Source of the DNA: Phycisphaerae bacterium
Lineage (GTDB): Bacteria; Planctomycetota; Phycisphaerae; UBA1845; UTPLA1
Assembly (NCBI GenBank): GCA_016935885.1
Contig: JAFGQA010000394.1
Location: 1-6,744 of the forward strand
Reading direction: 5' to 3'
DNA: 6,744 bases
Each line of letters opens with the position of its first letter. The first letter of the stretch is position 1. The position numbers were made by a program, and so were the translations under genes. Below, one piece after another: positions 117 through 4,169 of this stretch. The notes under the pieces are model-generated. The model worked only from the letters and a program-made list of their open reading frames with translations. It made no database searches and was not told the DNA's origin.

Positions 117-209
117 GATTGCCGGCGGCGGCTTATCCGCCAGTGGGCACGGCTTGGCAAGCTGGCCGTGGCATCCCGGCAATCGTGACACGTGTGAAAC
201 GCGGTACTA
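117..209. repeat. Foldable segment B ending in the element A terminal motif
   Basis: A perfect 9-bp closing stem (GATTGCCGG 117-125 with CCGGCAATC 176-184) encloses two hairpins. The first is GGCGG 127-131 with CCGCC 137-141. The second is CACGGC 148-153 with GCCGTG 165-170. Nine bases later comes TGTGAAACGCGGTACTA (193-209), which differs from the right end of element A copy 1 (71-87) at one position. The core is unlike that of element A, and I find no matching left-end inverted repeat in 88-116. It may be a second repeat type with the same end, or a degraded unit. The shared end and the stems are direct observations; membership of one family is inference. Confidence 0.6.
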
Positions 210-3659: not shown

Positions 3660-3694
3660 AAAGAAGAACCGATGCCGGACGGGAACCGGCATCG
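3660..3694 (-). terminator. Probable intrinsic terminator, minus strand
   Basis: A perfect 9-bp GC-rich stem (CGATGCCGG 3670-3678 with CCGGCATCG 3686-3694, 7-base loop) is followed on the minus strand by a pyrimidine tract TTCTTCTTT (3668 down to 3660). It lies downstream of the small minus-strand gene ending at 3906 and upstream of ggt, so it would separate the two transcripts. The tract has interrupting C residues, so efficiency is uncertain. On the plus strand no T tract follows. The rest of 3493-3776 shows no gene I trust and would hold the ggt promoter, which I cannot pinpoint. Confidence 0.5.
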
Positions 3695-3776
3695 ATTCAC
3701 GGTGGTTTCTGGCTGACCGCGGGAAGTCGGCAAGCCCTGCGAGTGATGACGACTGTTTCTATTCCGGGCCGGGCAG

Positions 3777-3910
3777 GCTAGTACCGCGTTTCATAAGAAA
3801 CGCGACTACGATTGCTGGACCGAGAATCACTTCTCGGTCCTGAAGCCGGTGCCGAGAGAGGATTCTCGGCAGAGCGTGCAGTCGTTCTATTTGTGAAACG
3901 CCGTATTAGC
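3777..3910. mobile_element. Element A, copy 2: complete repeat with terminal inverted repeats and three hairpins
   Basis: The left end GCTAGTACCGCGTTTCATAA (3777-3796) and the reverse complement of the right end (3891-3910) agree at 17 of 20 positions, giving imperfect terminal inverted repeats. Three hairpins lie inside: CGCGTTTC 3785-3792 with GAAACGCG 3797-3804 (loop ATAA); GGACCGAGAA 3817-3826 with TTCTCGGTCC 3831-3840 (perfect 10 bp, loop TCAC); and GCCGAGAG 3851-3858 with TTCTCGGC 3863-3870 (8 bp including one G-T pair, loop AGGA). The part from 3822 to 3908 repeats 1-87. It encodes no protein. Size, inverted ends and a second copy fit a non-autonomous MITE-like or REPIN-like repeat, but no transposase is in the window. 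The last three bases of its right end (3906-3908) are the TAA stop codon of the neighbouring minus-strand gene. Confidence 0.8.
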
Positions 3911-4169
3911 TCTCGGACTGATCTTCCAGCATCTTCCGGAGCTGCTCGTTCTCTCGTCTGGTCGCCTCGAGGTCGAACAGGAGGTACTTGATCGACAACC
4001 GAAGGTAGTCAATCGATGCGTGCAAGCTGGTGACCGTCTTATTCAGTTTGTCGTGACGCTCCTTGGCCTGGGCGGCGAGTGCCTCAATCTTGGCACGCTC
4101 CTCCGCTGGCATGTCGCCGATCTCCTGGACTAGTTCGGCAAGCTTACGCTGAAACGTATTCTCGTCCAT
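3906..4169 (-). CDS. Small coiled-coil protein of unknown function
   Basis: This is an 87-residue hydrophilic, highly charged protein that should be almost wholly helical. An N-terminal acidic segment (MDENTFQRKLAELVQEIGDM) is followed by an Ala/Glu/Lys-rich helix at 21-45. A probable coiled coil spans about 46-82, with the strongest signature KYLLFDLEATRREN at 61-74. There is no signal peptide or membrane segment. The ATG at 4169 is chosen because AGGGGAG (4174-4180 on the complement) lies four bases upstream and coding character stops there; the open frame runs on to 4301 but is arginine-rich and non-protein-like. From memory, small proteins with a similar KYLxFDLEATRRE segment occur in planctomycetes without known function; I cannot confirm this. 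It stands alone, divergent from the membrane protein gene at 4817. Its TAA stop is formed by the end of element A, so the original C-terminus may have been altered. Confidence 0.78.
   Translation of the reverse strand: MDENTFQRKLAELVQEIGDMPAEERAKIEALAAQAKERHDKLNKTVTSLHASIDYLRLSIKYLLFDLEATRRENEQLRKMLEDQSES

Follow-up and report, generated by a model that had tools for sequence, protein, structure and literature searches.

An element in a Phycisphaerae bacterium, very probably an IS630-family MITE that carries a pair of hairpins as cargo

The window (the whole stretch of DNA that was analysed, 6,744 bp) is apparently an entire contig of a Phycisphaerae bacterium, which begins inside a repeat and has genes for a DHH-DHHA1 protein, a gamma-glutamyltranspeptidase, a small conserved protein and a TPR protein. 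The positions of the repeat features are summarized in Table 1. A sequence-only reading had earlier described a hairpin-rich repeat with inverted ends at positions 3777-3910, and our measurements agreed with it: positions 1-87 and 3822-3908 were 95% identical, and 3891-3910, once reverse-complemented, agreed with 3777-3796 at 17 of the 20 positions. At 74% identity the inverted repeat reaches 31 nt; the complete element, counted from TA to TA with the duplicated TA included, is 130 bp, with CTAG at its left end and TTAG at its right end. All three of the hairpins that had been noticed are present; the first (3785-3804) lies within the left terminal inverted repeat (TIR). The copy at the left edge is incomplete because the window sequence starts there; assemblies often break at repeats, and a contig start that cuts this copy would fit with this. 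A further exact 14-nt element end, GAAACGCGGTACTA, was found at positions 196-209, and the whole window contains four exact ends. When up to three mismatches were allowed, seven end matches were found against 1.0 expected, a number that none of 200 shuffles reached. Separately, the region 100-209, in which the one-ended remnant has a third palindromic interior, gave a z of -2.7 when folded as DNA. Similar GC-rich palindromes around AGCTTGCC were seen by eye at about 145-180 of the window and at about 2611-2645 of contig L001 (see below), in different contexts.

Table 1. Positions in the window of the element, its parts and its neighbours
Feature	Position	Strand	Basis
Complete MITE	3779-3908		TIRs; 130 bp in 14 of 35 paired G066 copies
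CTAG at left end; TA at 3779-3780 is the presumed duplicated dinucleotide	3778-3781		Sequence; CTAG preference in G066
Left TIR	3779-3810	+	Comparison with L040 IS: right end 27/32, left end 25/32
Right TIR, with TA at 3907-3908	3877-3908	-	Comparison with L040 IS: left end 25/32, right end 22/32
Hairpin CGCGTTTC-ATAA-GAAACGCG within left TIR; the L019 element does not form it	3785-3804		Sequence
Inner hairpin 1, NGGA-type loop on - strand; loop changed to GTGA in this copy	3817-3840		Alignment of copies
Inner hairpin 2 (3850-3871), AGGA loop on + strand; tag AGCG at 3873-3876	3850-3876	+	Alignment of copies; tag from sequence
Second copy, with inner hairpins and right end, TA at 86-87; cut by contig start	1-87		83/87 to 3822-3908
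Third, one-ended remnant with an exact end at 196-209 and a different palindromic interior; left boundary uncertain	125-209	-	End-pattern search; fold
Conserved 87-aa Phycisphaerae protein; stop TAA at 3906-3908 lies in element end	3906-4169	-	ORF; protein search

A search of the genome collection with a 23-base core gave a single contig, L001 of the MAG Zod_Metabat.429 (G001). At 287-483 this contig has a copy with the same ends whose inner hairpin unit is repeated at steps of 32-33 nt, and the flanks of this copy (ATAG on the left, CTAG on the right) would fit a TA duplication without later change. In the same genome, another element (C126, L019) has the same ends with a different interior, and C202 (L020) is a one-ended relative of the L019 element in inverted orientation. 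Among 397 genomes sampled from the class, at least 19 matched the element at E <= 0.01 with two candidates scored per genome. By eye, the ends were visible in the matches of seven genomes (G001, G066, G288, G344, G026, G385 and G392) and the inner hairpins alone in those of nine (G359, G300, G332, G273, G013, G270, G383, G368 and G217), with G005, G184 and G266 left unclassed. G392 has both end-bearing and hairpin-only matches, and the hairpin-only genome G383 also has a full-length IS.

The copies were most thoroughly characterized in G066, where at least 47 BLAST matches at E <= 0.1 were found with 40 of 116 candidates scored. A search with the end pattern, one mismatch allowed, gave 72 matches in this genome, compared with four for the reversed pattern. 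By pairing ends at 79 loci (up to four mismatches in each end, with the ends 60-450 bp apart), we obtained 37 candidates, of which the 35 of 210 bp or less were used for the length and flank counts. The commonest length was 130 bp (Table 1), and six of the 35 were 142 bp. C precedes the element in 27 of the 35 and G follows it in 30, and 17 have CTAG at both ends; CTAG is itself rare, with 108 occurrences in 160 kb against 579 expected from the base composition. An all-against-all blastn of the 400-bp flanks of the elements gave five matches, two from an overlapping pair in L127 and three (27-91 bp) among L127, L063 and L131; the flanks are mostly unrelated. Taken by themselves, the flanks would fit a duplication of either TA or CTAG, and TA was taken as the duplicated bases because of the kinship with IS630. 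Tenzen and Ohtsubo reportedly described, to go by the title of their 1991 paper, a preference of IS630 for CTAG.

The sequence-only reading had proposed a dispersed non-autonomous element, and this was well supported by the many copies in G066 with sharp TAG/CTA ends and mostly unrelated flanks, by the CTAG target and by full-length ISs with matching ends (see below). It had also named two objections to its own proposal, namely only two copies and similarity past the ends, and relatives showed neither. Its suggested search of relatives yielded many sharp-ended copies at TAG/CTA but no empty site. A PEPCK match was found in 25 of 30 genomes related to G066, and these loci showed no empty site and lacked the same convergent neighbour; likewise, no empty site was found at 30 fetched loci of the 87-aa protein, none of which matched the window element's left flank. 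At both sets of loci, the flanks had diverged too far.

Full-length partners of the element were found in two genomes. G344 has a 1308-bp IS (L040, 223-1530) whose ends are identical for 18 bp, followed by a 5-nt spacer, which differs between the two ends, and then by ACGACTAT. Its protein matched DDE_3 (3.1e-22) and the NCBIfam IS630 transposase (7.8e-45). The 1294-bp IS of G383 (L267, 2-1295) has the same layout, and its transposase is 70% identical to that of L040. In both ISs, the reading frame changes between the helix-turn-helix part and the DDE part, at the same conserved sequence; since 70% identity has been kept between the two transposases, this more likely reflects frameshifted expression than decay. 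Each end of the window element fits the opposite-handed end of the L040 IS better (27 against 25 and 25 against 22), a difference of only two to three of 32 positions. A transposase at E <= 1e-40 was found in at least four of the 397 genomes, with up to four candidates scored per genome. The more distant transposases of G352 and G275 come with ends that are related to these yet not the same, and the sole transposase of G288 is a distant one (35%) that lacks these ends. At E <= 1e-10, no transposase of the L040/L267 kind was found in G066, G001, G026 or G385. These include the genomes whose MITEs are the most similar, so their mobiliser may have been lost, may be absent from the MAG or may be more distant. 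Conversely, no type-A MITE (see below) with these ends was seen in the IS carriers G344 and G383.

The position of the element relative to genes was then considered. The 87-aa protein, whose stop codon lies in the right end of the window element, had 1078 matches in all and is exactly 87 residues in 84 of 120 clusters among those listed (its own included); the insertion target was therefore probably the native stop, and the element apparently left the gene whole. At the 30 loci from other genomes, the protein was 84-92 residues (87 in 10 of the 30), and CTAG stood at its stop in only one of these relatives. A more general association was found in G066, where we compared 25 elements having at least one intact CTAG end with 229 other CTAG sites in 400 kb, counting stop positions of ORFs mechanically and not by gene calls. 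ORFs of at least 150 codons ended on 10 of the 25 elements and on 33 of the 229 control sites (Fisher p = 0.003). With minima of 100, 200 and 300 codons, the counts were 12, 6 and 6 on elements against 43, 20 and 10 on control sites (p = 0.002, 0.03 and 0.002). This excess may perhaps reflect just the loss of insertions inside genes and not a choice of target. Among 17 tested G066 ORFs that end on an element, 11 had Pfam families (SRP54-type GTPase, PGI, DUF1570, PFK, PEPCK, ABC1, VanZ-like, Band 7, sulfatase, GNAT and ABM) and six had none; the ORF that ends on the element in L001 had no Pfam match. At L083, convergent genes for PFK and PEPCK both have their stops within the element ends.

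From these results, we consider with high confidence that the element is an IS630 (Tc1/mariner) family MITE with the hairpin pair as its cargo, and the mover is very probably an IS630-family transposase. A full-length relative would make the transposase, which would act on the MITE in trans by binding the bipartite ends of about 30 bp. The element would be cut out and pasted into the TA of a CTAG site, with duplication of the TA. Since the first base of the element is G and the last is C, CTAG would be rebuilt on both sides, and a gene with a TAG stop as the target would therefore keep its stop codon there. Insertions at stops would be tolerated; many of the copies that survive are at gene ends. 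This would be a simple low-harm route for a mobile element, in which target and termini together rebuild the stop codon. The hairpin cassette, from a family that is dispersed separately, may have been captured between the ends.

By most of the features tested, the element belongs with IS630-type MITEs such as RUP of Streptococcus pneumoniae, a 107-bp MITE for which IS630-Spn1 is the proposed mover (PMC2229807). The two are alike in their size, their TIRs resembling those of IS630-family ISs, their TA target and their intergenic dispersal. RUP differs in its host phylum and its ends (PMC2229807), whereas the Phycisphaerae element has a bipartite TIR of about 30 nt, a preference for CTAG and several alternative palindromic interiors. 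IS630 and ISY100, which are bacterial Tc1/mariner elements, likewise have an IS630-family transposase and TA at the insertion; they are autonomous ISs, whereas the transposase of the Phycisphaerae partners lies in two frames (PMC2170065). The likeness to Correia/NEMIS elements is one of layout (100-160 bp, TA termini and a strong fold; PMC2229807). MITEPsy1 of Pseudomonas syringae is a 100-nt MITE that also uses CTAG, but it reportedly duplicates four nucleotides (CTAG or YTAA) and resembles an IS of the IS5 family, not IS630 (PMC3189936). Among the titles returned by a full-text literature search, none was on an IS630-type MITE family in Phycisphaerae; the present element adds such a family, with identified full-length partners.

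The interiors under the same ends vary. In G066, we distinguished type A (the hairpin pair of the window element), type B (with GGC-TTTA-GCC-like hairpins) and mosaics. Hairpins without MITE ends, that is, with no end at up to four mismatches within 500 nt of the hairpin, were found at 17 loci in 10 genomes (the nine hairpin-only genomes and G392), exposing a dispersed family of hairpins in which the loop is almost invariant and the outer stem variable. In samples of stems of at least eight with four-base loops, GGGA (or its complement) was the commonest loop in G066 (5/15), G300 (4/14) and G383 (2/4), but not in G001 (1/8) or G217 (0/1); for stems of at least six, the GGA loop class came first only in G383. 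The tag after the stem was AGC in 49 and AGCG in 35 of 54 core matches, some of which are chance matches. Over these 54 matches, from 13 genomes and the window, the outer stems covaried: 109 of 156 cells (26 distinct outer stems) paired, against a mean of 88.8 and a maximum of 105 in 2000 shuffles, in a set that includes chance matches and related copies and whose loci were selected chiefly for their similarity to the query. In G013 (L038), G300 (L053) and G066 (L167), a full tagged hairpin is directly followed by at least one head-truncated tandem copy with a similar tag. The A-NGGA loop resembles the binding site of CsrA, and CsrA genes were present in nine of the nine hairpin-bearing genomes tested, which alone says little. 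It is, in our estimate, unlikely that the inner pair is a structured element of Phycisphaerae that is mobile in its own right, defined by an NGGA-type loop, a covarying outer stem and an AGC tag, and that it hitch-hikes on IS630 MITEs and has a CsrA-site-like loop; if it were, each insertion at a stop codon would place hairpins that bind CsrA at the 3' end of a gene. As a separate observation, L224 (C52 of G288) has four type-A hairpins (one or two mismatches) in tandem at 40-nt steps at 335-472, near a Y1 transposase gene.

We weighed three other explanations of the repeat. The sequence-only reading had offered, as one possibility, a structured RNA family spread in the genome. A regulatory RNA that is kept and spread for its transcript rather than by transposition would agree with the covariation of the outer stems and with the fold, which is very stable on both strands: the RNA folding of 3777-3910 has its ends paired into a closed fold, as had been predicted, at -69.1 kcal/mol, compared with a mean of -38.3 for shuffled sequences (z -8.1; none of 200 shuffles as good). 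However, no Rfam family was found on the element (best match 15.5 bits against a cut-off of 80), and at least two unrelated interiors occur under the same ends. Covarying stems, which had been suggested as a check, were not convincing within 16 aligned elements, where the score (0.035) was lower than that of a slid control (0.054), although the outer stem pairs did covary across the 13 genomes and the window. We thus regard the RNA explanation as highly improbable. No match to the intrinsic terminator consensus was found within the element, and the single match in the window is outside, at 3666-3698.

A RAYT-type (Y1) transposase might instead move the whole element as a REPIN-like sequence, which we consider very unlikely. 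The inner hairpins do resemble REPs as a stem-loop with a short tag in inverted pairs and single units, as in the REP/REPIN systems with RAYTs and TIRYTs (PMC3733652; for REPIN and TnpA-REP, see also PMC3116915 and PMC8266576), and Y1_Tnp (PF01797) genes were present in all seven genomes searched. At one of 30 Y1 loci (L209 in G300), type-A hairpins with zero or one mismatch flank the Y1 gene on both sides, but another hairpin (CCCCGGCG...) is nearer the gene. At L210 and L224, type-A hairpins (up to two mismatches) lie on one side only, and none was found at that level at the other 27 loci; Y1 genes at L205, L206, L209, L211, L212 and L213 are accompanied, close by or on either side, by different hairpins of their own. 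No element end was found in the 30 Y1 loci at up to three mismatches, and one was found at four. The tag is AGC(G) instead of GTAG or CGTC (PMC3733652), the outer stem varies, and an association with Y1 is not established. The element ends, on the other hand, are long inverted repeats in common with the IS630-type IS. Of the earlier label MITE/REPIN-like, the MITE part stands as the IS630 type, whereas the REPIN layout is limited to the inner hairpin pair. An ordinary segmental duplication without mobility would agree with the window itself, which has just one complete copy and one cut copy, but the similarity of the two ceases at the right end and the family is dispersed in G066 among mostly unrelated flanks, making this explanation almost negligible.

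Two further arrangements of the ends were noted in relatives. In G026 (C14, L163), two inward-facing ends at 369-1519 are 1151 bp apart with a 214-aa ORF between them, and the stop codon of an ORF at 12-371 lies in the left one. In G392 (C111, L234), a paired element at 1296-1458 is directly followed, at the contig end, by another end that shares its CTAG.
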